From positions 1 to 64,000 of IMG/VR virus record IMGVR_UViG_3300042882_000899: a stretch of 64,000 bases of DNA; one strand, 5' to 3'. Within the stretch, counting starts at the first letter, position 1. Each line of letters begins with the position of its first letter. Positions 3,465 through 55,970 of the stretch are shown piece by piece. This DNA comes from a virus. The notes beneath the pieces were generated by a model, which had not been told where the DNA came from, made no database searches, and worked only from the letters and a program-made list of their open reading frames with translations. The position numbers and the translations under genes are program-made.

Positions 3465-3769
3465 TGTCGGAAAGAGCAGAAGTAAAAAGAGACGGCGCCA
3501 AAGCTCAAAAAAATAGTGGGCGTGGGGAATATCAAAAGGGCGATGCCAAATGGAAGATGTTCCTTGTAGACTATAAAGAGTCCAAATCATCTTTTAATTT
3601 AAATAAACCTGTGTGGGCTAAAATTTGTACAGACACGTTTAAGGTTAATAGAGATATGCATCCTGCGCTAAAAATAATAATTGGATCAGACAATAAGGTT
3701 AGGCTTGGTATAATAGAGTGGTCAGTGTTAGAAGAGCTGATTGATTTTTGGGAGGAAAACCATGTTTAG
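3464..3769 (+). CDS. PD-(D/E)XK-type nuclease-like protein, 101 aa
   Basis: GTG start overlapping the previous stop. The pattern KGDAKWKMFLVDYKES (GD followed by VDYK) fits the D...(D/E)xK core of small phage endonucleases and Hjc-like resolvases, and the N-terminal region is basic and glycine-rich. It follows recA, which suits a role in recombination or DNA maturation. The family call rests on this one motif, so a generic nuclease is the safest description. Confidence 0.55.
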   Translation: MSERAEVKRDGAKAQKNSGRGEYQKGDAKWKMFLVDYKESKSSFNLNKPVWAKICTDTFKVNRDMHPALKIIIGSDNKVRLGIIEWSVLEELIDFWEENHV

Positions 3770-4754
3770 TTTAGACGAAAAGCATCACATAATGCCATTC
3801 GTTACCTTGTATAAGAATGCAATTAAAAACCCTAAAGATTTTTTAGACATAATAGAGTCATCTGAGAATGCTAATCCTGAGAACAGTATAGAAAATTCGT
3901 GGGGTGCGTGGGATAATTTTGGGGTTAAAGCAAATCTTCATGACATACACAACCAATCTAATAAAAACACTCACCCAGAGCTAAACATATTAGACGAGTT
4001 TACAGAGTTGATTAATGCTGGCTTAGATGAGTATATAAACTATTGGATAACAGAAAAAAATGTTGATATGTATAAGACAACAAACCCAGAGCACTGGAAA
4101 ACAATATTTCCCCCATTTGTTAAAAATTGGAACTACAGATCAAACTTAGTTGACCTAGTAGAAGACTTCGAGTCTTGTGAGACTGTAATGACAGCAAGCG
4201 GTAATCCTGGATGGATAAGCTCTGGAATTGACATATTAAAGCACAAGGAAAATACATCAGATAAATTTGCAATAGGATATCATATTGATACAGACGGAAG
4301 CATCGACACCCCAGGCCCAAAAACAGTTTTGACCGCTACAATATATATCAACGATGACTACGATGGCGGAGGGGTCTCATACTTAAATGAATTTGATGGG
4401 ACCATAGTGAACTATAAGCCATCTGCTGGCGACCTAGTTATATTTCCTTCATCAAAACCATTTTTCCATGCAGCACTTCCTTTAAGCGGAGACAAGCCAA
4501 AATATTTAGCAAGGAAGTTTTTAAGATGGAAAAGCATTGGATCGGAAGCTTGGCAAAATGAGATTAAAGAAAATGGCGAACAGTTCACATTAAAGCTTCA
4601 CACTGAAAAAAGAAAAATTGAATCAGCAATGGGGTACTATACAAAAAGAGTTTTCCTTAAGGGAGAAGATAGGTCTACCCAAGATCAACACGGAGACCCT
4701 TTCTTTGTTAAAGACATAATCGATTTTAATAAAAAAATAGAGGGTGGTGCATGA
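3762..4754 (+). CDS. 2OG-Fe(II) oxygenase (prolyl 4-hydroxylase superfamily), copy 1
   Basis: Iron- and 2-oxoglutarate-dependent dioxygenase; substrate unknown. ATG 3762 has GGAGG seven bases upstream and overlaps the previous gene. The iron-binding HxD is H174/D176 (GYHIDTDG), the distal His is H236 (FFHAALP), and a basic residue for 2OG follows in KYLARKFLRW. The strand TATIYINDDYDGGG and YKPSAGDLVIFPS are hallmarks of the P4Hc fold. The 170 residues before the domain have no recognised family. First of three tandem relatives. Confidence 0.85.
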   Translation: MFSLDEKHHIMPFVTLYKNAIKNPKDFLDIIESSENANPENSIENSWGAWDNFGVKANLHDIHNQSNKNTHPELNILDEFTELINAGLDEYINYWITEKNVDMYKTTNPEHWKTIFPPFVKNWNYRSNLVDLVEDFESCETVMTASGNPGWISSGIDILKHKENTSDKFAIGYHIDTDGSIDTPGPKTVLTATIYINDDYDGGGVSYLNEFDGTIVNYKPSAGDLVIFPSSKPFFHAALPLSGDKPKYLARKFLRWKSIGSEAWQNEIKENGEQFTLKLHTEKRKIESAMGYYTKRVFLKGEDRSTQDQHGDPFFVKDIIDFNKKIEGGA

Positions 4755-5839
4755 TGTGGGAAGGACAACCAGGTTTTGCTCCTGGGTACGAAAAAAACCA
4801 TGATCTTTCAAAAAGACATGACCTTTTCCCTTACATTTCTGTTTATTCTGGCGGGATTAAAAACCCAGAACAAGTGCTTTCAATAATAAAAAAATCAGAG
4901 TCGCTTGAAAAGGTAGGACCATACTTAAGTAAGTGGGAGAGATGGTATGATTTTGGATTAAAGTCTAGACTTTATCCACACTCAGAAACAAAAAATTTAA
5001 TAACATTAAACTCCGAGCATTTAAATATGCTGTCAGAAGAAGAAGATAAAACTTTTTACGAGCAAGAGAAGCTGTATTTTGAAATAGATGATGCAGTTTA
5101 TTCTGCAATGAAAGATTACCTAGATCATTGGGTAGATAAGCCATTTGACCAATCATACTTTAATGATAATTGGGAATACAAGCAATCAATTTTCCCAGAG
5201 TGGCTTCCAGACTGGAATATTCGAGAAACATCTGGAAAGATTGGGACAGGTTGGCTGCAAAGCTCTTATGATGTTTTAAGCCACAACTCTGAAACCGATA
5301 CAAGGAATAATCGTGAGTATGCAATTGGATTTCATACCGACAATAAGGCAAGCATGGTTTCTATGCCAGGCCCAAAGCCGATTCTTACGGCTACAATTTA
5401 TCTAAATGACGACTACGACGGGGGAGAGGTTTCGTTCTTAGCAGATAGAAGCTCTTCTATAATAAGCTACAAGCCAAAGGCTGGGGACATAACCGTTTTC
5501 CCATCCTACAATCCATTTTTCCATGCTGCACTACCAGTTAGTGGCGGCAAAAAGTATTTAATTAGATACTTTTTGTGCTATTATTATGGAGGGTCAGAAG
5601 ATTACCTAGATGGTTTAGAGGAATACGGCGAAGAGGTCTGGAAAAAAATGCAACAGTATAGAATTCTTGCAGAAGATAACTCTGGAATGCATGAAAGACA
5701 TGTGTTGTTCCCAGGAGACAGCCCAGAAGAAACATTTAGGAATTGGTCAAAAATTTATAGAAAGCAGTCTGCTATAAATAGACAACCATTTTTTGCTGAG
5801 ACTGTAAAATATGTAGATGGGAGAAAAGATTTTGATTAG
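4751..5839 (+). CDS. 2OG-Fe(II) oxygenase (prolyl 4-hydroxylase superfamily), copy 2
   Basis: Second of three tandem dioxygenases, overlapping copy 1 by four bases. Complete site: H195/D197 (GFHTDNK), distal H258 (FFHAALP), basic residue in YLIRYFLC. Shares with copy 1 the strings PGPK, NDDYDGG and YKPKAGD, plus a similar N-terminal half that begins with a WxxWxxFG-type segment, so all three look like products of local duplication. The longer tail (about 80 residues past the domain) is family-specific. Substrate not deducible. Confidence 0.85.
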   Translation: MMWEGQPGFAPGYEKNHDLSKRHDLFPYISVYSGGIKNPEQVLSIIKKSESLEKVGPYLSKWERWYDFGLKSRLYPHSETKNLITLNSEHLNMLSEEEDKTFYEQEKLYFEIDDAVYSAMKDYLDHWVDKPFDQSYFNDNWEYKQSIFPEWLPDWNIRETSGKIGTGWLQSSYDVLSHNSETDTRNNREYAIGFHTDNKASMVSMPGPKPILTATIYLNDDYDGGEVSFLADRSSSIISYKPKAGDITVFPSYNPFFHAALPVSGGKKYLIRYFLCYYYGGSEDYLDGLEEYGEEVWKKMQQYRILAEDNSGMHERHVLFPGDSPEETFRNWSKIYRKQSAINRQPFFAETVKYVDGRKDFD

Positions 5840-6893
5840 TCATGAGATATTTAAGCAATGTATAGTTTACCAGGTGGAAGACTTCGATGCTAAAGGAGTG
5901 CTTGATGTTATAAAATCCTCAGAAGGAATACAAGAGGGACATCTTATAGCTGAATGGGAAGACTGGTACACATTTGGAAAAAAAACAAAGTTCATTGATG
6001 CAAGAAAAGAAACAAATCCTGTAACTGAAGATCTAGACCGTATTTATACTGATGCCCATATGAAAGTTAAGACTGTTATAGATAGATGTATTAATGACTA
6101 CATAGCCAATTATTTAGATAGCGGACAAAGATCTTGGCCAGATTATGTTGATTTTTCTGATTTAAAAAAGGGCGTGTACAAGAAAAAAAGTTATATAGAC
6201 TCGATAGACTTTGCTGACTTAGAAAGCGAAGATGTATTAGAAAGCATGATGGACCTTAAGATAGTCACCTGTGATAATACTGGAGATCCTATATTTAGAA
6301 ACCCTTCCAATGGGTGGTCTGATAGCTCCTATGATTTATTAAGGCATGACCCTTTAACAGACAGGGAGTATGCAATAGGTTGGCATACAGATAGAAATGA
6401 AGGTTTAGATGAAGCTCCAGGGCCAAAGTCTATACTATCAGTAACCATATATCTTAACGATGATTATGAGGGCGGCGAGATTGCATTCTTAAAGGATGGA
6501 GACGATAAGGTTATTGTTTATAAGCCAAAGGCTGGCGACATAGTAATTTTTCCTTCTTCTAATCCTTTTCAGCATGCAGCAATGCCAATAAAATCAAATG
6601 TTCCAAAATATTTTATAAGACACTTTCTTACTTGGTCGTACCCTGGAAGCGAAGATTGGAATTTAAACGCTAAAAAGTTTGGATTAGACGAGTGGATTCA
6701 AATGGAGCATGAGAGAATACACTTAGAAACAATTTCTGGCAAAGGAAGAAAGCATGTTGTTTTGCCAGGGGCAAGAAATGATTTTGATAAAAGATCTATG
6801 CCAGAACCATTTTACGTAGAATCCCAAATAAACGGAGAAGATTATTACATAAAAGAAGTTATTTTTATGTATGGAAGCTCTTTACAAAAATAA
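5817..6893 (+). CDS. 2OG-Fe(II) oxygenase (prolyl 4-hydroxylase superfamily), copy 3
   Basis: Third tandem dioxygenase. Numbered from ATG 5817 the metal ligands are H190/D192 (GWHTDRN) and H253 (FQHAAMP), with YFIRHFLTW supplying the 2OG-binding base. The start is uncertain: the best ribosome site, GGGAG at 5819-5823, lies inside the ATG 5817 reading and would serve TTG 5832 eight bases later. Either way it overlaps or abuts copy 2. Ends the oxygenase run; a new promoter region follows before ssb. Confidence 0.83.
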   Translation: MGEKILISHEIFKQCIVYQVEDFDAKGVLDVIKSSEGIQEGHLIAEWEDWYTFGKKTKFIDARKETNPVTEDLDRIYTDAHMKVKTVIDRCINDYIANYLDSGQRSWPDYVDFSDLKKGVYKKKSYIDSIDFADLESEDVLESMMDLKIVTCDNTGDPIFRNPSNGWSDSSYDLLRHDPLTDREYAIGWHTDRNEGLDEAPGPKSILSVTIYLNDDYEGGEIAFLKDGDDKVIVYKPKAGDIVIFPSSNPFQHAAMPIKSNVPKYFIRHFLTWSYPGSEDWNLNAKKFGLDEWIQMEHERIHLETISGKGRKHVVLPGARNDFDKRSMPEPFYVESQINGEDYYIKEVIFMYGSSLQK

Positions 6894-10051: not shown

Positions 10052-10588
10052 ATGGAAATTGAATTAGCTGATCATTTTGATCGAATGAATAAAGTAGTTG
10101 AAGAGCTTCTTAAGGGAAACACGCCCACTCAAATTGCTACAATTACTGGTCTCAAAAGGGCAGAGGTTTTAGAGCATATTGACGAGTGGAAAAAAGTAGT
10201 AAGAAACGATTCAAGCGCTAGAGATAAAGCAAAAGAAGCAATCTCTGCCGCAGACCAGCACTATGCAATGCTTATAAATGAAGCTTGGGAGCTAGCAAAA
10301 GAAGCCAAAATGCAGGGCCAACTTGGAGTTCAAGCTACAGCGATTAAGTTAGCAGGAGATATGCAAAACAAGAAAGTCACCATGCTTCAGGACGTAGGCC
10401 TTCTTGAAAACAATGAGCTTGCTTCACAGATATCAGACACAGAAAGAAAGCAAGAGATTCTGGTTAAGATACTTAAAGAGGTTTCTGCAACTTGCCCTAA
10501 ATGCAAACTTGAAGTTTCAAAGCGTCTATCTCAAATAAATGGAATAGCAGAGCCAATAGAAATTGTAGAGGCGGTGTCAAATGGTTAG
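10052..10588 (+). CDS. terS: terminase small subunit-like protein
   Basis: 178 residues. An N-terminal helix-turn-helix (NTPTQIATITGLKRAEVLEHI, residues about 23-43) precedes a long helical region, and a C-terminal CPKCKLEV could bind zinc. Position directly upstream of the large terminase, separated only by an oxygenase gene, supports a DNA-recognition role in packaging. The sequence itself is not a strong match to a named TerS family. Confidence 0.6.
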   Translation: MEIELADHFDRMNKVVEELLKGNTPTQIATITGLKRAEVLEHIDEWKKVVRNDSSARDKAKEAISAADQHYAMLINEAWELAKEAKMQGQLGVQATAIKLAGDMQNKKVTMLQDVGLLENNELASQISDTERKQEILVKILKEVSATCPKCKLEVSKRLSQINGIAEPIEIVEAVSNG

Positions 10589-11168
10589 CAGTCCAATAAA
10601 TCTAACCAACTTTGAGATACTTGGAGAAAGAATCTATGTCTATAAAAATTTTATATCTGAGTCTGAGATTAATGAGGTTTTAGCAGAGGTAAAAAATGTT
10701 GAAGACTGGTATGTTGGTGAATATTTTACAAACACAATGGCAACATATAACACAAAGACTGTTGACTACCTAAGAGAAAGAATACAAAACCTTCTAGACG
10801 ACACTCATTTTGCATCAGCCTCAAGCCATGTAGTTAGAATGGTTGAGGGTAACACGTGGGGCGCTCACTCAGATGTTCATGATTTTGAAGAAATTGAGGA
10901 ATTAGCTAAACAGTATGAAGAAGGCGAAGACTACATAGATAGACAGCTCTCGGTATTTGGAACAATTGTTTATTATCAGCTTCCAAAAGAAGGAGGCGGT
11001 CTTTTCTATACAAAGCAAAATTTAGAGTATAAGCCTTCTCCAGGAGATTTAGTGATACACGGATCAGATGATTATTGTGAGCATGGAGTTAAAGAAGTCC
11101 TAGATGGTGAAAGATACGCCACTTCTGGGTACATATACAAAAATGTAAAGATTAAAAATGGAAATTGA
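10581..11168 (+). CDS. 2OG-Fe(II) oxygenase inside the terminase operon
   Basis: 195-residue dioxygenase nearly limited to its catalytic domain. Ligands: H96/D98 (GAHSDVHD) and H168 (CEHGVKEV), with R176 in GERYATSGYIY as the 2OG anchor. Overlaps terS by eight bases and terL by eleven, so it is co-translated with the packaging proteins. The nearest relatives by pattern in the window are the genes at 55188 and 55948, which share HGV.EV..G.RY. Substrate unknown. Confidence 0.82.
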   Translation: MVSSPINLTNFEILGERIYVYKNFISESEINEVLAEVKNVEDWYVGEYFTNTMATYNTKTVDYLRERIQNLLDDTHFASASSHVVRMVEGNTWGAHSDVHDFEEIEELAKQYEEGEDYIDRQLSVFGTIVYYQLPKEGGGLFYTKQNLEYKPSPGDLVIHGSDDYCEHGVKEVLDGERYATSGYIYKNVKIKNGN

Positions 11169-13629: not shown

Positions 13630-13717
13630 AATAGAGTATTATGTTTATAAAATTTATTCTTATATAAGAAAAAAAATAGTAAAGCCTAAAAGAGACAAGG
13701 AAGACTTTATTTACTAA
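13619..13717 (+). CDS. basic mini-protein, 32 aa
   Basis: Overlaps the end of the previous gene and its stop overlaps the carbamoyltransferase start (TAATG). Rich in Lys and Tyr. It may simply couple translation across the gap. Confidence 0.45.
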   Translation: MKIKIEYYVYKIYSYIRKKIVKPKRDKEDFIY

Positions 13718-15144
13718 TGATAATTCTTGGAATTAACGAAACATCTCACGACGCTTCAATATCCTTAATCAAAGATGGAGAAATACTTTTTGCGGGGCAT
13801 GCAGAAAGATATAGCAAAAAGAAAAATGATTGGTACAACAACAAAAACATATATTTTGATATGCTTAACTATGGCACTCCAACACATATAGCATACTATG
13901 AGCATCCCCAACTCAAAAGATCACGAATACTATTAAGAGGTGGATCAGCCGACTGGAAGCCCAACATTCCAATGAATCTTCCAATTAAATACTTTAATCA
14001 TCACTACTCTCATGCCTGTGCTGGATACTATACAAGTAAATTTAATGATGCATGTATTGTTGTGCTTGATGCAATAGGTGAATACAATACCTCCACAATT
14101 TGGGTTGGAGAAGGAGATAAAATTAGATTAAAGTATAAGCAGAACTATCCAGTTAGTTTTGGTTTATTCTATTCTGCATTTACAAAACTAATTGGGCTTA
14201 TGCCAAACCAAGAAGAGTACATAATGATGGGTATGGCAGCCTATGGAGACTGGAGAAGATATTATAAAGAGGTTAATGAGTATTTTCCATCATACTCAAA
14301 ACAAAAATATAATTTTCACAAAGGTATAGATGACTGGGGAATTGTAATTACTGAGCAAGACAGGTTTGATATAGCTGCAGCAGTGCAAATGGTTTATCAG
14401 CAGAGGCTAAATGATTTTATGCACATGGCCCATTCGGTTACTGGCAAAAGTAATTTGGTGTTCATGGGAGGGTGTGCGCTTAATTCATCTGCAAACACAA
14501 TTCTTTGGAATATATTTAACATGGTGTGGATTATGCCAAATCCAGGAGATGCTGGTAGCTCTTTAGGAGCAGCAGCAGCACTGTATGGAAAGCACATTAG
14601 CTGGAAAAACCCTTACCTAGGATATGATTTAGGCGGAGAGTATCCAGTTCAGAAAATTGTTGATGGAATATTAAAGGATGGAATTGTGGCGGTGGCAACA
14701 GGAAGAGCTGAATATGGCCCAAGGGCTTTAGGAAACAGATCAATACTGGCAGACCCAAGAGATCCAGATATTAAAAACAAAGTTAACTTAATCAAACAAA
14801 GGGAATTGTTTAGGCCATTTGCTCCAGTAGTAATGGAAGAATATGCATCAGAGTGGTTTGACATGGATTTCCCAAGCCCATATATGCAGTATACTGTTAA
14901 GTGTTTAAAGCCAGATAAGATTCCATCGGTTGTGCATGCAGATGGAACATCAAGGGTTCAAACAGTAAATAGAGATCAGCATAGAGGTCTTTACAGGGTT
15001 TTAAATAAGTTTTATCTAGAAACTGGAGTACCAGTACTTTTAAATACAAGCTTAAACATAAAGGGCCAACCATTATTAAATGATGAACCTGATATAATTG
15101 CATGGGAAAATGAATATAATTTTAAGATATTGAGGGGAGACTAA
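13717..15144 (+). CDS. NodU/TobZ-family carbamoyltransferase
   Basis: 475 residues. Family enzymes move a carbamoyl group from carbamoyl phosphate to a hydroxyl via carbamoyl-adenylate. N-terminal Kae1-like domain: LGINETSHDASISLIKDG, then HHYSHACAGYY near residue 93 and VVLDAIGEYNTS near 115; GGCALNSSANT near 251. The C-terminal domain carries GPRALGNRSILADPR near 336 and PVLLNTSLNIKG near 442. All landmarks are intact but it is shorter than typical NodU (about 550-600). The acceptor is unknown; it is paired with an SGNH hydrolase gene. Confidence 0.88.
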   Translation: MIILGINETSHDASISLIKDGEILFAGHAERYSKKKNDWYNNKNIYFDMLNYGTPTHIAYYEHPQLKRSRILLRGGSADWKPNIPMNLPIKYFNHHYSHACAGYYTSKFNDACIVVLDAIGEYNTSTIWVGEGDKIRLKYKQNYPVSFGLFYSAFTKLIGLMPNQEEYIMMGMAAYGDWRRYYKEVNEYFPSYSKQKYNFHKGIDDWGIVITEQDRFDIAAAVQMVYQQRLNDFMHMAHSVTGKSNLVFMGGCALNSSANTILWNIFNMVWIMPNPGDAGSSLGAAAALYGKHISWKNPYLGYDLGGEYPVQKIVDGILKDGIVAVATGRAEYGPRALGNRSILADPRDPDIKNKVNLIKQRELFRPFAPVVMEEYASEWFDMDFPSPYMQYTVKCLKPDKIPSVVHADGTSRVQTVNRDQHRGLYRVLNKFYLETGVPVLLNTSLNIKGQPLLNDEPDIIAWENEYNFKILRGD

Positions 15145-18015: not shown

Positions 18016-18065
18016 AAGTGAGACCTGGGTATGTCCAAAAACTGCCCTCTAACAGAGAGATTGAT

Positions 18066-18827
18066 ATGATTATTCAAATTATTGGGCTACCAGGTTCTGG
18101 AAAGACGGAGTTAGCAAAAGCATTAAAGGAAAGAATTAACGCCATTCATCTTAACGCAGATGAAGTACGTGCAACAGTAAACTCTGATTTAAGTTTTACC
18201 CCAGAGGATAGAATTGAGCAGGCAAGACGCATGGGTGAGATGGCTCGCTTAATTGCTAAGCAAGGAGTTGCACCAGTTATTGTAGATTTTGTATGTCCAA
18301 CTGACATTACTCGTGCAGCATTTGGCAAGCCAGATATATTTGTATTTATGGACACTCTTGCTGAAGGTCGTTTTGAAGACACAAACAAAATGTTTGAGCG
18401 ACCAACAGAGTTTGATGTATCATTTATTAGCCATAACTTAGATGCTGAAGCAAAGGCGTCTCATATTATTGACAAGTTCCGCCTGCACGATTGGTCAGCT
18501 CCAACAACTTTAATGCTGGGCAGATATCAACCATGGCATGAGGGACACCATGCACTATATAAAGAGGCGGGAAAGAGAACAGATCAAGTCCTACTTGGAG
18601 TACGCAATACATACAATACAAGTGAGAAAGATCCTCTCAAGTTTGATCAGGTAAAAGAATACATTGCTAAAGATGAATTTATGGATGGCGCATTAGTGCT
18701 AAGACTTCCTAATATTACTAACATTGTATATGGTCGTGATGTAGGGTATAAGATTGAGCAAGTAGATTTGGGGGCAGACATTCATGCTATATCGGCTACG
18801 CAAAAACGTAAAGAAATGGGCATCTAA
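18066..18827 (+). CDS. APS-kinase-like / nucleotidyltransferase fusion
   Basis: Start ATG 18066, just before the P-loop. Residues 5-13 are GLPGSGKTE; HLNADEVRATVNSDLSF and EDRIEQARRMGEMARL follow adenylylsulfate kinase (CysC). The second half opens with LGRYQPWHEGHHAL, an HxGH nucleotidyltransferase motif, and ends with VYGRDVGYKIEQ. Such kinase/transferase fusions resemble NadR in reverse order; a sulfate-activation role (PAPS) is possible because two sulfotransferases are encoded in the window. Substrates are not proven. Confidence 0.72.
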   Translation: MIIQIIGLPGSGKTELAKALKERINAIHLNADEVRATVNSDLSFTPEDRIEQARRMGEMARLIAKQGVAPVIVDFVCPTDITRAAFGKPDIFVFMDTLAEGRFEDTNKMFERPTEFDVSFISHNLDAEAKASHIIDKFRLHDWSAPTTLMLGRYQPWHEGHHALYKEAGKRTDQVLLGVRNTYNTSEKDPLKFDQVKEYIAKDEFMDGALVLRLPNITNIVYGRDVGYKIEQVDLGADIHAISATQKRKEMGI

Positions 18828-30184: not shown

Positions 30185-30979
30185 ATGAAATTTCACTGGA
30201 TGATAAGGCATGAAGATACAAGTCCAGAAGGCCTAAAAAAAGCATTTGCGTATATAAATAGCTTTGGATACGACTCATGCATGCTGACTTATCATTCAAG
30301 AGAAAATGACATGTTTATCAAATTAGCTAGGGCAATTGATCCTGACCTGCCATTAAAATATATTATTGCGATGAGGACCTATGCCATTAGCCCAGAGTAC
30401 CTTGGGCTAATGGTTAAGGGGTTTGAAGAGATTGCAAAAGACAAGATAATGTTCAACATAGTTGCTGGGGACCTTCACGCAAATGAAACTAGCGTAGAAG
30501 ATGTGGTTGATTCTAGTCTTTTATCTACATCTCAAGATAGAGTTAAGTATACTGGATTATGGTTAGAAAAATTTACAAACTTAGAAATATTAAATGGCCG
30601 ATTACCCAAAATGTTTATGAGCGGAACTTCGAAGGCCACTTTTGACAACTGTAAAAATTTTAATGGCGGAATAATGGTAATGGTTGACTACTACATGGAA
30701 AACTTAGAGTTTTTATCCAAATTTGATACACGTTGCGTAAGCCTTCAAATATGTATTAGAGATACAGATGAAGAGGCTGATGAAGTAAAGCATGCCAATT
30801 ATGAAGGCGATAAGCTAAAATGGTGTTATTTTTATTCAGAAGATACTTTGTTGAAAAAGATCATGGATCTAAAAAGAAATGGAGTAACTGATATAATGGT
30901 TACTGGTTTACCATTTGACCCTGAAGTTCAAAGGGTTCATGAGTTTATTAAAAAAAACCTGGAGGCTTTTAATGGATGA
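30185..30979 (+). CDS. luciferase-like (LLM) flavin monooxygenase-related protein
   Basis: 264 residues with the TIM-barrel pattern of LLM enzymes such as SsuD: YINSFGYDSCMLTYHS near 20, SPEYLGLMVKGFEEIAKDKIMFNIVAGD near 75-102 (cf. the NLVTG segment), and a C-terminal DIMVTGLPFDPEVQRV. Shorter than free-living LLM proteins (about 330-380). Overlaps a 2OG oxygenase by eight bases. Flavin use and substrate are inferred. Confidence 0.6.
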   Translation: MKFHWMIRHEDTSPEGLKKAFAYINSFGYDSCMLTYHSRENDMFIKLARAIDPDLPLKYIIAMRTYAISPEYLGLMVKGFEEIAKDKIMFNIVAGDLHANETSVEDVVDSSLLSTSQDRVKYTGLWLEKFTNLEILNGRLPKMFMSGTSKATFDNCKNFNGGIMVMVDYYMENLEFLSKFDTRCVSLQICIRDTDEEADEVKHANYEGDKLKWCYFYSEDTLLKKIMDLKRNGVTDIMVTGLPFDPEVQRVHEFIKKNLEAFNG

Positions 30980-31652
30980 TGTAAAGATAGTAAATAATTT
31001 TATCTCAAAAGAAGACATAAAAACCTTTACTAAGTATATAGATGACAACTGGCAGGACCAAAACTTATTTAGACACAGGGTTGGGCTTGCTTTTAATAAA
31101 GGGCTTGCCGTAAGAGCTGTTTTCCCAGATGAAAAGCCTGCATCTTTATTTAAAGACCTTGAGGGTATTATATACAAACATTCTGAAAAATTTTTAAATT
31201 TATCAAAAAGCTTGTTTGATGACGATAGAGATGTTTATTTTTATGGAGTTTCTATCACAAGGTTGAGCAAGGATATTCAAATAAGAATACATACTGATGT
31301 CCACGACTACTTTACCGATCTTTTATACTCTGGTGTCATATACTTAAATGATGACTACCGTGGAGGAGAAATAACATTTTTAGATGAATACTCTTCTAGA
31401 GAAGAAGATGTTAAAATTGATCATTCTAAATCACAGAAAGTTGATTTCCCTTTGTACGACGACTCTTTAGGTGGATTTTCATATAAGCCTAAAGCTGGAG
31501 ATATTGTAATTTTCCCAGCAAATAAACTTCACGGAGGCAAGGTGGTCACCGAGGGGACTAGAGATGCAATAGTTTTTTGGTCAACTTTAGCAAAAGAATA
31601 CGAATTTGAAGGCTTTGATTCAGATCGAATCGTAGCAAAAATAAGAAGTTAA
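30972..31652 (+). CDS. 2OG-Fe(II) oxygenase
   Basis: 226 residues from ATG 30972, preceded by GGAGG. Ligands H107/D109 (RIHTDVHD) and H187 (KLHGGKVV); YLNDDYRGGEITFL and YKPKAGDIVIFPA are standard P4Hc strands. The 2OG-binding basic residue would be in GTRDAIVFW. Coupled to the LLM gene. Confidence 0.83.
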   Translation: MDDVKIVNNFISKEDIKTFTKYIDDNWQDQNLFRHRVGLAFNKGLAVRAVFPDEKPASLFKDLEGIIYKHSEKFLNLSKSLFDDDRDVYFYGVSITRLSKDIQIRIHTDVHDYFTDLLYSGVIYLNDDYRGGEITFLDEYSSREEDVKIDHSKSQKVDFPLYDDSLGGFSYKPKAGDIVIFPANKLHGGKVVTEGTRDAIVFWSTLAKEYEFEGFDSDRIVAKIRS

Positions 31653-33241: not shown

Positions 33242-34036
33242 ATGAAAAAGTTGTATTTTTTACATATACCAAAAACTGCTGGTAAATTTGTATCTGCTGG
33301 TGTATCAAAATCTCTTTCGGATCATGCTAACTCTTTATACATAAGCACACATTTTCCTAACAACAAAGAATTTTTATCGGATAAAATATATATCTCTGCA
33401 CATGCTGGTATGTATATACCAGAAAACGTAGAAGGTGTTGATGTAGCCACTATAGTTAGGAATCCCATTCATGCCAGGGCAAGCTACTTTAATTTTATAT
33501 ATCATATGTATTTAGACAAAAGGGAAGAGTATCTAAATCTTAATACAATGCGTGAAAAGTTCTTATACTACCTCTTTGAAGATAATAATTTTTTATCCCA
33601 TAACAATTATCAAACCAGATTTCTATGCAATTCTTCAAACCCAAAATCATGGGACAGAAAAGAGTATTTTAAAGAAAGCAATAGTCTTTTAAAAAAATAT
33701 CATGACGGTCAGGCTTTTGATTGGTTTATTGATAATGATAATACTTCAGTAGAATTAGCTATTTCAAATTTATCTAATTTTAAAATAAAAAATACTGTTG
33801 AAAGGATAGATTTATTTTTAGAAAGCGTATCTTCATGGTTTATGGATAACTATGGGATCAGCGTAGAGTTTAATAAAAATGATAGGATAAACGAAAGCTT
33901 GTCGAAGGACAAAAATAATTCCTATTCATCTAAAGATTTAATTGACATGCTAAGCGAAAAAGAAATAGAAAAAGTTTTAACTTTAAATAGCATGGACTAT
34001 GCTGTTTATAATTTTGTAAAGGGCATGGAGTCTTAA
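33242..34036 (+). CDS. sulfotransferase-like protein A
   Basis: 264 residues. FLHIPKTAGKFV is the 5'-phosphosulfate loop and VRNPIHARASYF near residue 76 the 3'-phosphate loop of PAPS-dependent sulfotransferases. Likely moves sulfate from PAPS to a glycan or small hydroxyl compound; acceptor unknown. Related by motif to the gene at 53865. An APS-kinase-like gene is at 18066. Confidence 0.75.
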   Translation: MKKLYFLHIPKTAGKFVSAGVSKSLSDHANSLYISTHFPNNKEFLSDKIYISAHAGMYIPENVEGVDVATIVRNPIHARASYFNFIYHMYLDKREEYLNLNTMREKFLYYLFEDNNFLSHNNYQTRFLCNSSNPKSWDRKEYFKESNSLLKKYHDGQAFDWFIDNDNTSVELAISNLSNFKIKNTVERIDLFLESVSSWFMDNYGISVEFNKNDRINESLSKDKNNSYSSKDLIDMLSEKEIEKVLTLNSMDYAVYNFVKGMES

Positions 34037-34037
34037 A

Positions 34038-35336
34038 ATGAAATTAAGTCCAGAAAGACCAAAAAAAGAATTAGAAGCGTTTAACTTTAAAATGCAAGGC
34101 TCATATGAAATAGATGAAATTACGAATATCGCCTTGTCATTTGATAAGCAGTGGAATTTATATACCTCTAGACAAAAAGAAGTGTATCCAGATAGAGTAA
34201 ACCCACATCTACACACAAATACTTATATCATACAGAACCACCCCCTGGACTGGGTTTTTGGAAGCCCAATAGCATCAGAGGTTTTGGATCCAGAAGCATT
34301 GTCTTCTATTTCTCATATAGTAGAATCTCTGGAGGAGGATTTAGTTGGAAAAGCTGCCAGAGTGCTTTTGATAAAACTAGAAGCTAATAAAGATGTCGCT
34401 ACACATGTTGATAATGGCGACTACTTATCAACAGTTAGAAGGTTTCACATACCATTGATAACAAATGATTTAGTTTCATATACAGTTAATGATGAAACTA
34501 TACATATGAAAAAATCTGAATGCTGGGAAATAAACAACCTAAAATATCATTCAGTTAGAAATGATGGGGATCAAGATAGAATACACTTATTAATAGATAT
34601 ACTTCCTGAGTATTCATTTAGAGTTTATAACGATAATTTAGACAAAAATGTTAGAATTATTGAAAATTTTATAACATCAGAAGAAGCAATTTTTTTTATA
34701 GATTATATAAACAAAAATAAAGATGACAAATCTAAATTTCCTTTAACAAGAGGCGAGGTGAGAGGAAAGATTAGAAGTGAAGCAAACATACCAGAGCTGG
34801 TGCCATTAAAAAAACATGAGGAAATACTAAATCAAATAAAAGATATTTCTAATAGGACTATGCGTGAGTTTAAGGATATATCTGGCAAAGATGACCTGTG
34901 CACCTCTGCATTTTGGATGACCAGACTTGGTCCCAATACAGTTTTGCCAATGCATACAGATGACCACAAGTTTGCTCAACATCTCTATATGAGCTCAGTT
35001 ATATATTTAAATGAAGATTATGAGGGCGGCTATATTAAATTTAAAGATGTTGATGTAACCTATAAGCCTAAAAAATATAGTGCAATATTTTTCCCATCTT
35101 CATATCAGCATGCAGTAACTAGAGTGAAAAGTGGTATAAGAATGACTTTGCCTAACTGGGTTTCGCTTGGGCAGGAAAGAAATATATTTGTAGAGAATCC
35201 AATTGTACATGATCCAAGAACTTTATTTGGTAGTGATTCTGATGATCCAGCTCTTCCAGCCCTTCTAGCAAGCTGGGCCAAAGCAAACAAGACAACAATA
35301 GCTGGTTATGATGGAACTGAGTATTATGGAGAGTAA
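34038..35336 (+). CDS. double oxygenase: Asp/Asn beta-hydroxylase-like plus P4H-like
   Basis: 432 residues with two complete dioxygenase sites. Domain 1: H123/D125 (ATHVDNGD), RFHIPLITND and H171 (YHSVRNDG), the layout of aspartyl/asparaginyl beta-hydroxylases. Domain 2: H306/D308 (MHTDDHK), YLNEDYEGGYIKF, H358 (YQHAVTRV), R364. No linker stop or frameshift. A fusion of two oxygenase classes is rare and suggests sequential hydroxylation of one protein. Confidence 0.8.
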   Translation: MKLSPERPKKELEAFNFKMQGSYEIDEITNIALSFDKQWNLYTSRQKEVYPDRVNPHLHTNTYIIQNHPLDWVFGSPIASEVLDPEALSSISHIVESLEEDLVGKAARVLLIKLEANKDVATHVDNGDYLSTVRRFHIPLITNDLVSYTVNDETIHMKKSECWEINNLKYHSVRNDGDQDRIHLLIDILPEYSFRVYNDNLDKNVRIIENFITSEEAIFFIDYINKNKDDKSKFPLTRGEVRGKIRSEANIPELVPLKKHEEILNQIKDISNRTMREFKDISGKDDLCTSAFWMTRLGPNTVLPMHTDDHKFAQHLYMSSVIYLNEDYEGGYIKFKDVDVTYKPKKYSAIFFPSSYQHAVTRVKSGIRMTLPNWVSLGQERNIFVENPIVHDPRTLFGSDSDDPALPALLASWAKANKTTIAGYDGTEYYGE

Positions 35337-36075: not shown

Positions 36076-36231
36076 ATGAAAACTTTAGGAACATTAATTT
36101 TGTTAGGATTTATTGCCTACTTTATCTTTGCTGCTTATAGAGATATGAAGCAGGCAGTTGAAGCAACAAAGATACAGGAAAAGTACAATACAGACAAATT
36201 TTGGACATCTCAAAGGGATTTTGAGGAATGA
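36076..36231 (+). CDS. single-pass membrane protein, 51 aa
   Basis: N-terminal helix (TLGTLILLGFIAYFIFAAY) and charged tail. Leaderless under a consensus promoter; heads an operon with groES (ATGA overlap). Confidence 0.7.
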   Translation: MKTLGTLILLGFIAYFIFAAYRDMKQAVEATKIQEKYNTDKFWTSQRDFEE

Positions 36232-36530
36232 GTATGATTAAGCCATATGGCAATTTGCTGCTAGTTAAAGAAGATAAGGTAGAAGACAAAACAACATCCT
36301 CTGGTATTGTTTTGATGGCTTCTTTAAATGAATCATCTCTTAGAACTGGAAAGATCATCGACCTTGGAAATGGTGAGCATAACTATAAGGGTGAGCTAAT
36401 CCCTATTAACGGATTAGACGTTGGTGATGTAGTTTACTACAATCAAAACAGCGGTATTGATATTGAAGATGAAGGCGGAGAAAAGTATTTACTTCTGAAT
36501 ACAAAAAGCGTACTAGCGATTAAGGATTAA
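36228..36530 (+). CDS. groES: GroES-like co-chaperonin
   Basis: 100 residues. Begins MIKPYGNLLLVKEDKVEDKTTSSGIVL and ends EKYLLLNTKSVLAIKD, with GDVVYYNQNSGIDIE between: the GroES order, with a divergent mobile loop (NESS). Phage co-chaperonins such as T4 gp31 replace GroES for capsid folding. ATG 36228 and 36234 are both possible. Confidence 0.85.
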   Translation: MSMIKPYGNLLLVKEDKVEDKTTSSGIVLMASLNESSLRTGKIIDLGNGEHNYKGELIPINGLDVGDVVYYNQNSGIDIEDEGGEKYLLLNTKSVLAIKD

Positions 36531-37365: not shown

Positions 37366-37596
37366 ATGTGGTGGTCATGGGTACTTGCTGCGATAGGTGT
37401 AGCTGGGATATATTTTGTAGGTCGAAAAGATAAGTGGGGGTGGTTTGTCCTGCTATTTAACGAATGTCTCTGGATAGCTTACGCAGTAATAACAAAACAG
37501 TATGGGTTTATTGCATCTGCAATCGCATATGCAGCAGTGTATATTAGATCTTATATACACTGGTCTAAAGAGCCAGTAAATAAAATAAGCATATGA
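37366..37596 (+). CDS. membrane protein, 76 aa
   Basis: Three hydrophobic segments, with WGWFVLLFNECLWIAYAVITKQYG resembling small PnuC-like or DUF-type proteins. Ribosome site AAGGAT. Function unknown. Confidence 0.65.
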   Translation: MWWSWVLAAIGVAGIYFVGRKDKWGWFVLLFNECLWIAYAVITKQYGFIASAIAYAAVYIRSYIHWSKEPVNKISI

Positions 37597-38372
37597 AACA
37601 AACAATTAAGTTTCATTCAAAAACATTTAAAAACAATTTAGTTAAAGAAAATGCCCCATCACCTGCAAAAAGCTTTATGCCAGACTGGTTTGTGTCTAAA
37701 GAAAAATATGTTGTGGATGAAAATAATAACAAGTCTATTGAGTTTTACAAAACTAAAGATGGATCTGTCAAATTCAAAAGAAACAGAACGTATAAAGCTT
37801 GCCCTGCACTACTGGATTCTTTGTCGTCTGGCTACCTATTGTACACTCCATGCGACATAGAGGTTAAGAAAAAAGATGGGCAATACTTAATATCCGTAAA
37901 TGAAGATTTTGGTTCTGGAGTCAATGTAAAAAATGGTGCATTTTCATTTATTAGGGGCGAGAATGACGGATTTCCAACCCCAGTTGGCCACAGCCCAGTG
38001 CATTTTGTATGGAATACCAACTGGTTTCCAGAGGTTCCAGATGGGTATGTAGCTCTATTTGCTCACCCTATAAACAGGTTTGATCTACCATTCACAACAA
38101 TATCTGGAATAGTAGATTGCAGCGGATACATAAATGGAGGGGCAATCCCTTTCTTTATCAAAGAAGGATTTGAAGGTATAATAGAAGCTGGCACACCATT
38201 TGTTCAGATAATTCCATTTAAAAACGAGCAATGGGAGCACGAATCTATATTCTATAACGAAGAAGAGTCCTTAATTCATAGGCAACAAATGAACTCAGAA
38301 TATAGAGTTGTAGATGTTGATCACGACACTAACTATAAGCAAAAATTTTGGACTAAAAAAACTTATAAATAG
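37593..38372 (+). CDS. conserved phage hypothetical protein, 259 aa
   Basis: Recalls DUF6065-type phage proteins: SFMPDWF near residue 27, GFPTPVGHSPVHFVWNTNWF near 130 and EAGTPFVQIIPFKNEQW near 204. Soluble, beta-rich; no catalytic motif visible. Name is tentative. Confidence 0.65.
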   Translation: MKQTIKFHSKTFKNNLVKENAPSPAKSFMPDWFVSKEKYVVDENNNKSIEFYKTKDGSVKFKRNRTYKACPALLDSLSSGYLLYTPCDIEVKKKDGQYLISVNEDFGSGVNVKNGAFSFIRGENDGFPTPVGHSPVHFVWNTNWFPEVPDGYVALFAHPINRFDLPFTTISGIVDCSGYINGGAIPFFIKEGFEGIIEAGTPFVQIIPFKNEQWEHESIFYNEEESLIHRQQMNSEYRVVDVDHDTNYKQKFWTKKTYK

Positions 38373-39058: not shown

Positions 39059-40015
39059 ATGAAAAAAACAAAATGGCTATCATCAATTGCTATATCAATT
39101 ATTATGGCTATTTCTCCTGCGTCAGCAGTCGAGAATGGAACCTTATTAACACACGATGACAATGCTGTCTATTTATTAGACGGATCAGTAAATGCTTTCC
39201 TTTACAAGCCACAGATCGTATTCACATCTGCACATGGAATGGACCAGTGGGCTAAAGGAGATCTATTTGTTAATACATCCTACGGCAAAAAAGTAATGGT
39301 TAAACAGATACTAATGGCAAAGGGATTTAAAGATAGAATAATTACTAAAGAATCAATTGCGTCAGGAACATCAGTCACAAGCAGGTCCAATGACTTTGCA
39401 ATACTAATCTTATCAGAACCAATTCCAATGACAAATACAGTAGAATTAATTAAGGCTGAAGATCTTCCTATCATTCTTAATAGCCAAGAGCCAGTATACT
39501 CAGTTGGATATAGCTATTATGACAACACTCGCAAGAAAGACCAGAGCCCAAGACAACTTGAAGCAAAGATGATTGATAAAGAGTTGGCACGTCAGATATA
39601 CCAAAGGTACTATTCAGTCTGGCATCCAAATTGGGGTCCACGTGGAGCAACATTCGAACTGCTAGATATTCAATTAGTACATTCTGCAGCAAAAGGCTCA
39701 GGTTGTGACGGAGACTCAGGCAGTGGTTACTTTATTAAAAGGGGTGAAAACAAGGTCTACTTGGGTCCTGCTGGGGCACACAGTATTGGAATACCAAACT
39801 GCGGTCAGCCTGGATATTGGGGTGAGTACGGTAATGCCTTTGGTATTGAACCTGTATATAAACACTTAGATCTTATAAAAGAGGCTGAACTAATTGTTGA
39901 TAGCATGGTAATTAAGCCAGTAGACCCGAAGGTGGAACCTAAAGTAGAACCGAAAAAGAAGTATAATAGGAGATGGTCTAGCTTATTCAGGTATACACAA
40001 TTTCTTATGTGTTAA
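39059..40015 (+). CDS. secreted trypsin-like serine protease
   Basis: 318 residues; signal peptide SIAISIIMAISPASA. Triad: His in FTSAHGMD, Asp in SNDFAILIL, Ser in GCDGDSGSGY, the chymotrypsin-fold order. The C-terminal tail is Pro/Lys-rich (VEPKVEPKKK) and basic. With the subtilisin-like gene it forms a second exported protease driven by a similar promoter. Confidence 0.85.
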   Translation: MKKTKWLSSIAISIIMAISPASAVENGTLLTHDDNAVYLLDGSVNAFLYKPQIVFTSAHGMDQWAKGDLFVNTSYGKKVMVKQILMAKGFKDRIITKESIASGTSVTSRSNDFAILILSEPIPMTNTVELIKAEDLPIILNSQEPVYSVGYSYYDNTRKKDQSPRQLEAKMIDKELARQIYQRYYSVWHPNWGPRGATFELLDIQLVHSAAKGSGCDGDSGSGYFIKRGENKVYLGPAGAHSIGIPNCGQPGYWGEYGNAFGIEPVYKHLDLIKEAELIVDSMVIKPVDPKVEPKVEPKKKYNRRWSSLFRYTQFLMC

Positions 40016-55187: not shown

Positions 55188-55970
55188 ATGATAAATATTG
55201 ATCAAGATATACTTTACTTAAACAATAAACTTCTTTCTAATGATAGATTTGAAAAAATTCACGATGAAATATACATATGCAAAAAATTTTTATCTGAAGA
55301 AGAGTGCTATATTCTAGTTGAGGATGCAAAAAAAGATATTGGTGCTCAAGGTAAACAATATACAAGCAACCTTTTGATTAATTATAAGGACAGGCTTTTG
55401 AGCTTGATTGATTTTGAGAGTCAAGGCAATATAAAAGAGAGCAATATAAACGGTGGCTGGGATAAGCTTGTCTTACGATCAGATGGTGATTCCGATAAAT
55501 TCCACATAGACATATATAATTATTTAAACAAGTATATGGAATCATCACAGATACAGTTTGATGAAAGACTTGAAAAAATTAATACTTCATTCATGTCATT
55601 TGTGATTTACTTTTCAGAAGACTTTGATGGTGGAAGTATATCTTACCCAGAATACAACTTTAAGTACAAGCCATCTATTGGAGATATGATATTGCATAAT
55701 GTTCAAATTGTTCACGGTGTTGAGCCAGTTACAAGCGGCGAGAGATGGTCGTATCAAGGATCTATAGATATGGTTAAATATATTGAAAAAGATTTATTTA
55801 CTAAGTTTATCGTTGACAATGAATATTTTCAAAATAGACATGACGCTTTAAAGATGCCTAAAGAGCCAGACCATAAGATGAAGGACGATATGTTTTTTTA
55901 TAGAGAAGATCAGTCCCCTCTTTTAAACAAAAGATTACTTAAGTATGTTACTCAGGAGCCATATCTTTAA
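55188..55970 (+). CDS. 2OG-Fe(II) oxygenase
   Basis: 260 residues. H106/D108 (FHIDIYN), H176 (VHGVEPVTSGERW) and R182 complete the site; FSEDFDGGSISYPEYNFKYKPSIGDM is the P4Hc strand. Overlaps the convergent oxygenase gene by 23 bases at the 3' ends. Related in layout to the terminase-operon enzyme. Confidence 0.82.
   Translation: MINIDQDILYLNNKLLSNDRFEKIHDEIYICKKFLSEEECYILVEDAKKDIGAQGKQYTSNLLINYKDRLLSLIDFESQGNIKESNINGGWDKLVLRSDGDSDKFHIDIYNYLNKYMESSQIQFDERLEKINTSFMSFVIYFSEDFDGGSISYPEYNFKYKPSIGDMILHNVQIVHGVEPVTSGERWSYQGSIDMVKYIEKDLFTKFIVDNEYFQNRHDALKMPKEPDHKMKDDMFFYREDQSPLLNKRLLKYVTQEPYL

Follow-up and report, generated by a model that had tools for sequence, protein, structure and literature searches.

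Oxygenases of the prolyl 4-hydroxylase (P4H) kind carry a basic residue ten positions beyond the distal histidine of their iron site, and bacterial P4Hs are known to hydroxylate elongation factor Tu (EF-Tu), as has been reported for the enzyme from Bacillus anthracis. Human AspH, a hydroxylase of the PF05118 type, holds its iron by two histidines only and has a TPR domain, according to excerpts of PMC6817910. A combination of two different 2-oxoglutarate (2OG) domains within a single phage protein has a precedent in ORF248 of cyanophage S-SCSM1, which according to an extract of PMC9602691 unites PF13640 and PF05721 and comes from a genome where 24 ORFs encode 2OG oxygenases. The pairing of PF05118 with a P4H-like domain is not common, and we found no description of such a fusion in the open-licence literature. 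Here we analyse a fusion of this kind, encoded in a 64,000-nucleotide stretch of viral DNA (positions 1 to 64,000 of IMG/VR record IMGVR_UViG_3300042882_000899, hereafter the window), with the following features.

34038..35336, + strand: two-domain 2OG/Fe(II) oxygenase fusion, 432 aa, single ORF
34038..34622, + strand: N-half, about residues 1-195, PF05118
34404-34406, 34410-34412, 34548-34550 and 34578-34580, + strand: N-half site residues H123, D125, H171 and R181
34644..35171, + strand: C-half, about residues 203-378, PF13640, P4H-like
34953-34955, 34959-34961, 35109-35111 and 35139-35141, + strand: C-half site residues H306, D308, H358 and R368
35172..35333, + strand: C-terminal tail, residues 379-432, placed from alignments

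Architecture and conservation of the fusion protein

The original prediction, made from the sequence alone, held that one 432-residue protein carries two complete but different oxygenase sites, and its ORF coordinates, plus strand, length and all six named site residues are correct. Residues 87-188 match Pfam family PF05118 (Asp_Arg_Hydrox; E 5.8e-17, 62.4 bits against a curated cut-off of 22.6) and residues 293-375 match PF13640 (2OG-FeII_Oxy_3; E 6.6e-10, 40.3 bits against a curated cut-off of 27), and since both halves exceed their curated cut-offs, a chance pair of motifs can be ruled out. The structure prediction that had been proposed as a check yielded a confident AlphaFold2 model of the whole fusion from 14 aligned sequences (mean pLDDT 89.3, pTM 0.82), in which both halves are confident, the C-half adopts a P4H fold and the L-proline cis-4-hydroxylase structure 4p7w is matched. 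The top BFVD match to this model, A0A0P0YLZ9 (366 aa), is aligned across both halves with a poor whole-chain superposition (rmsd 18.6), and may be another two-domain viral oxygenase.

At least 24 fused ORFs exist, 23 in IMG/VR contigs plus that of the window, and these represent at least 12 distinct proteins that are 49-79% identical to the window protein. The relatives stem from IMG/VR scans and from profile searches of fetched loci, and the count is a lower bound since the last scan covered 80 of 199 relatives. Because all 24 fused ORFs, which stand for 12 distinct proteins, keep one frame, an assembly or sequencing artefact is ruled out, and we regard it as virtually certain that the fusion is a genuine two-domain protein. 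At E<=0.01 Pfam recognizes PF05118 in all 12 distinct proteins and PF13640 in 10 of them, and among the aligned rows the tail is complete in no lineage but that of the window.

Both triads as well as R181 and R368 are invariant in the 12 distinct fused proteins, which together with the Pfam scores bears out the claim of two complete and different sites. Altogether 71 of 195 positions in the N-half and 47 of 183 in the C-half are invariant. Of 14 half-by-pair comparisons, 10 give dN/dS values of 0.06-0.23 and four give none since dS is saturated, and both halves are under purifying selection. The Foldseek matches of the fusion model include yeast Tpa1 (4nhk and 3kt7), and double-domain proteins of this sort have one inactive domain, which would fit the notion that catalysis is confined to one half and that its partner serves for binding or as a scaffold. 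This notion is however made improbable by the facts that neither triad and neither arginine position varies and that selection maintains both halves, and we predict with good confidence that both are active.

Structural relatives of the two halves

In the N-half the HxD..H triad is complete (H123/D125/H171), and an arginine, R181, lies ten residues past the distal histidine. The best solved sequence relative of this half is the L-proline cis-4-hydroxylase (PDB 4p7w, E 0.0012), to identical residues of which H123, D125, R135, H137, H171, R181 and H183 are aligned, and Foldseek places the fusion model on the same structure with E 9.5e-11 and 17% identity in the fold alignment. The NCBIfam amino-acid hydroxylase model TIGR04531 is missed by far (22.2 against 300 bits).

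Fusion residues of about 196-388 align to P4H-type enzymes, namely human P3H1 (Z 18.4, rmsd 2.9 over 177 residues), 6n1f (Z 18.2) and the viral vCPH (Z 17.0), in a VIA-align list that is filled by C-half rows and barely covers the N-half fold. With PF13640 scoring over its cut-off and R368 at the position of the basic residue of P4Hs, the P4H-like label originally given to this half is well founded. The C-half also matches phrog_274 and phrog_2297, both labelled DNA endonuclease, and this could suggest that bases in DNA or RNA are hydroxylated by at least one of the halves. These labels however look like carried-over names, since the matches span the same residues as PF13640, and as the best folds are moreover those of prolyl hydroxylases and Tet_JBP reaches E 0.07 in the Pfam scan of the fusion, we consider a function in nucleic acid modification very improbable.

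Distribution and origin of the fusion

The original prediction knew of no common protein with this pairing, and in tblastn searches there was indeed no fused full-length match in INPHARED (50,697 phage records; half-matches only, in 3 records) nor in 72,556 plasmids (half-matches only, in 15 records). In bacterial genomes from two phyla, matches to the fused profile occurred in 24 of 296 and in 5 of 288, with one half only among the matches listed, which argues against a common bacterial architecture in these 584 sampled genomes. Two genome-contig scans returned no relatives and two N-half relatives, respectively, and Pfam finds the second oxygenase domain absent from four longer frames (G236, G213, G050 and G469). 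The supposed rarity thus stands for these collections, and the 24 fused ORFs show that the pairing is not confined to the window.

Many viruses have an unfused N-half, which frequently follows the same sulfotransferase-like gene that precedes the fusion. In a tree of 55 distinct N-half rows, with identical rows collapsed, all 10 fused rows and 15 unfused ones have this gene next to them, and since such unfused loci and tree rows exist, the partnership of N-half and sulfotransferase-like gene is commoner than the fusion. The remaining 30 of the 55 rows are without an adjacent sulfotransferase-like gene, and the N-half can therefore work without it. A single supported clade of 17 rows (97/90) unites the 10 fused rows with 7 of the unfused rows that have the sulfotransferase-like gene, and the fusion arose in a clade where the N-half also stands unfused behind the same gene. 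The fused label requires two changes on the tree, of which supported branches force only one, and the history may accordingly comprise either one gain and a later loss or two gains. The idea that the C-half stems from a recent duplication of the oxygenase gene next to the fusion is unsupported: in a tree with rows more than 93% identical collapsed and with weak deep branches, the C-halves group with the free C-half of locus L153 (90/95) and lie outside the neighbouring oxygenase's own clade (100/98).

Gene neighbourhood

The genes that accompany the fusion, together with a more distant APS-kinase-like gene, are the following.

33242..34036, + strand: sulfotransferase-like gene (264 aa) whose stop codon ends one base before the fusion start codon
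32758..33237, + strand: AhpC/TSA thioredoxin-fold gene, just 5' of the sulfotransferase-like gene (PF00578, E 7.5e-6)
30969..31652, + strand: separate 2OG oxygenase (PF13640) of the same gene set (E 1e-8, scanned from 30915)
30185..30979, + strand: luciferase-like-monooxygenase-type gene, named from a weak TIGR03565 match (E 3.1e-5, under cut-off)
18018..18827, + strand: APS-kinase-like and nucleotidyltransferase-like (NMN-adenylyltransferase-like) protein (PF01583)

In every one of the 24 fused ORFs a sulfotransferase-like gene lies directly 5' of the fusion, overlapping it or at most 3 bases away. A further PF13640 gene is found directly downstream of the fusion in 17 of the 24 and upstream in 6, and is absent from the short locus L047. 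The luciferase-like-monooxygenase-type gene is kept near the gene set in L001, L002, L004, L016, L017 and L049, and the AhpC/TSA gene is conserved in L001, L002, L004, L006, L048 and L049. Other arrangements occur as well, since eight loci (L112, L114-L118, L122 and L123) have the order sulfotransferase-like gene, N-half alone and further oxygenase without a C-half, the N-half gene overlaps a P4H-like gene in L060 and L062, and a free C-half is present in L153. A 259-aa protein matching phrog_7084 (window 37593-38372, E 3.9e-37) is likewise conserved in the vicinity of the fusion and also close to some free N-halves (L054-L057), while a GroES-like protein (window 36228-36530) and a trypsin-like protease (39059-40015) are conserved in the nearest relatives.

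The product of 33242..34036 is, judging from its predicted fold, a probable sulfotransferase. No sulfotransferase Pfam family is matched at E<=1 by any of 7 members of this neighbour group and the best Foldseek match has E 0.021, and an AlphaFold2 model of modest confidence (pLDDT 69) matches heparan sulfate 2-O-sulfotransferase with Z 13.5 over 212 residues and 6-O-sulfotransferase with Z 11.8, other sulfotransferases filling the list down to Z 6. Furthermore, L075 has a distant relative (blastp E 4.9e-5) next to a P4H-like gene, which relative reaches 19.3 of the 22 bits required for Sulfotransfer_2.

The constancy of this neighbourhood bears on two further explanations. The halves might modify host or virion proteins independently, the C-half for instance acting on EF-Tu, and be fused for co-expression only, with the sulfotransferase-like neighbour serving another path. 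Such a function is in agreement with the fold neighbours of the C-half, which include the Pseudomonas putida P4H-EF-Tu complex (4iw3, Z 16.2) and B. anthracis P4H (5v7y, Z 16.0), but P4H folds are common to many enzymes with other substrates and the sulfotransferase-like gene is kept in all 24 cases, and we find this explanation rather unlikely. Alternatively, the oxygenases could mainly burn or sense 2-oxoglutarate and thereby shift host nitrogen metabolism, and a part of PMC3037559 indeed proposes a nitrogen/2-oxoglutarate role for cyanophages, partly from their numerous 2OG oxygenase genes. The present virus would fit with its roughly 13 such genes, but the many invariant residues beyond the triads and the fixed gene order favour defined substrates, making this role quite improbable.

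The complete virus record comprises 114,960 bases and has phage genes for DNA polymerase, a UvsX-like recombinase, terminase and ribonucleotide reductase. The uncultured viruses that carry the fusion are probably bacterial viruses, and from the style of the proteins we guess the host to be an actinobacterium from freshwater. About 13 2OG oxygenase genes, the fusion included, are spread over the 115 kb, among them a tandem of three at 3.7-6.9 kb and a group of five at 70-75 kb (window 3741-6893, 10581-11168, 30969-31652 and 55188-55970; record G000 70,261-74,674 and 106,373-106,627). The window also encodes a NodU/Nol-like carbamoyltransferase (13717-15144; phrog_1601, E 4.8e-104), followed by a 363-aa protein with a weak DUF6473 match only.

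Possible function

At slightly less than even confidence, we favour the reading that the fusion is a bifunctional hydroxylase of a coupled hydroxylation-sulfation pathway, encoded in a conserved sulfotransferase-linked viral operon. In this gene set, which runs from the sulfotransferase-like gene over the N-half-C-half fusion to a third oxygenase, each half would consume O2 and 2-oxoglutarate and hydroxylate a C-H bond, and the two would be joined since they act on the same or on successive substrates. Since the fusion is conserved and its partners are fixed, a substrate or product should be common to both halves. A hydroxyl formed by the gene set would then be sulfated by the neighbouring sulfotransferase-like protein, and the phage's APS-kinase-like protein would perhaps help with PAPS.

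The product of 18018-18827 is a possible PAPS supply, as it scores well over the PF01583 cut-off (55.5 against 21.1 bits) with a best PDB match of E 1.1e-10, and it falls short of the NCBIfam apsK cut-off (TIGR00455, 57.4 against 138.7 bits). Such a gene is found in 13 of 16 related virus records, and L153 has a similar gene that shares its NCBIfam matches and starts about 17 bases past the N-half gene. It is however also present in G595, G597 and G598, records without a strong sulfotransferase match, and therefore appears loosely linked rather than tied to the pathway. A complete viral hydroxylate-then-sulfate pathway, with two to three oxygenase sites, one pair of them fused, a sulfotransferase of the heparan-sulfate-2-O type and a PAPS-making kinase of its own, all serving to decorate a host-surface or virion peptide, lipid or glycan in the course of infection, is doubtful.

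Our first guess at the substrate is a peptide or amino acid, because the iron ligands of the N-half are like those of amino-acid and proline hydroxylases and those of the C-half like those of prolyl hydroxylases, a glycan or lipid being also possible. A bacterial gene set that independently connects PF05118 with sulfation, and that looks like a peptide-tailoring cluster, occurs in a Bacteroidetes MAG (L081, 181-4537), where PF05118, PF13640, PqqD, Transglut_core3, P-loop kinase-like and Sulfotransfer_1 genes lie within 4.4 kb. In another locus (L080, 3992-5272) a single 426-aa frame has PF05118 and behind it a long C-terminal region that lacks a Pfam match and is β-propeller-like by eye, and a TPR-sulfotransferase gene lies 1.8 kb away. 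Some phages carry many 2OG oxygenases, and the search for their role becomes narrower with a fusion whose make-up and partners are conserved; the sulfotransferase-like neighbour moreover implies a searchable mass signature of +16, +16 and +80 Da.

Comparison with known systems

The N-half shares with 4p7w and other amino-acid hydroxylases of the PF05118 type the HxD..H triad and the arginine at +10, yet the 280-residue solved chain of 4p7w corresponds to just one half of the fusion. Human AspH is likewise of the PF05118 type and has its arginine ten residues beyond the distal histidine (H725/R735, corresponding to H171/R181), but judging from excerpts of PMC6817910 it is without a carboxylate iron ligand, whereas the N-half has D125, which is invariant in 12 of 12 distinct proteins. 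The initial description of the N-half as Asp/Asn β-hydroxylase-like is consequently right at the level of the Pfam family and wrong for AspH itself, and the Pfam scan of the fusion, unlike AspH, reveals no TPR family at E<=1. The C-half shares its fold (Z 15.5-18.4) with B. anthracis P4H (3itq), the viral vCPH (5c5t), human PHD2 and P3H1, and has HxD..H in common with the prolyl 4-hydroxylases, but these enzymes are free-standing or found in other architectures and about 14-21% identical to it. The neighbouring gene product is in a similar manner like the heparan sulfate 2-O- and 6-O-sulfotransferases in fold, at 15-17% identity and without their Pfam match.

As far as the extract of PMC9602691 goes, S-SCSM1 ORF248 resembles the fusion in combining two different 2OG domains in a single phage chain and in stemming from an oxygenase-rich genome, but pairs its P4H-like domain with PF05721 and not with PF05118 and shows no connection to a sulfotransferase. 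An independent link between PF05118 and sulfation exists in the Diaphorobacter plasmid protein WP_166071357.1, which has PF05118 and Sulfotransfer_3 in one chain. The bacterial protein joins PF05118 to the sulfotransferase itself, whereas the viral fusion joins it to a P4H-like domain instead, and the PF05118-sulfation link of the plasmid protein thereby has a viral counterpart.
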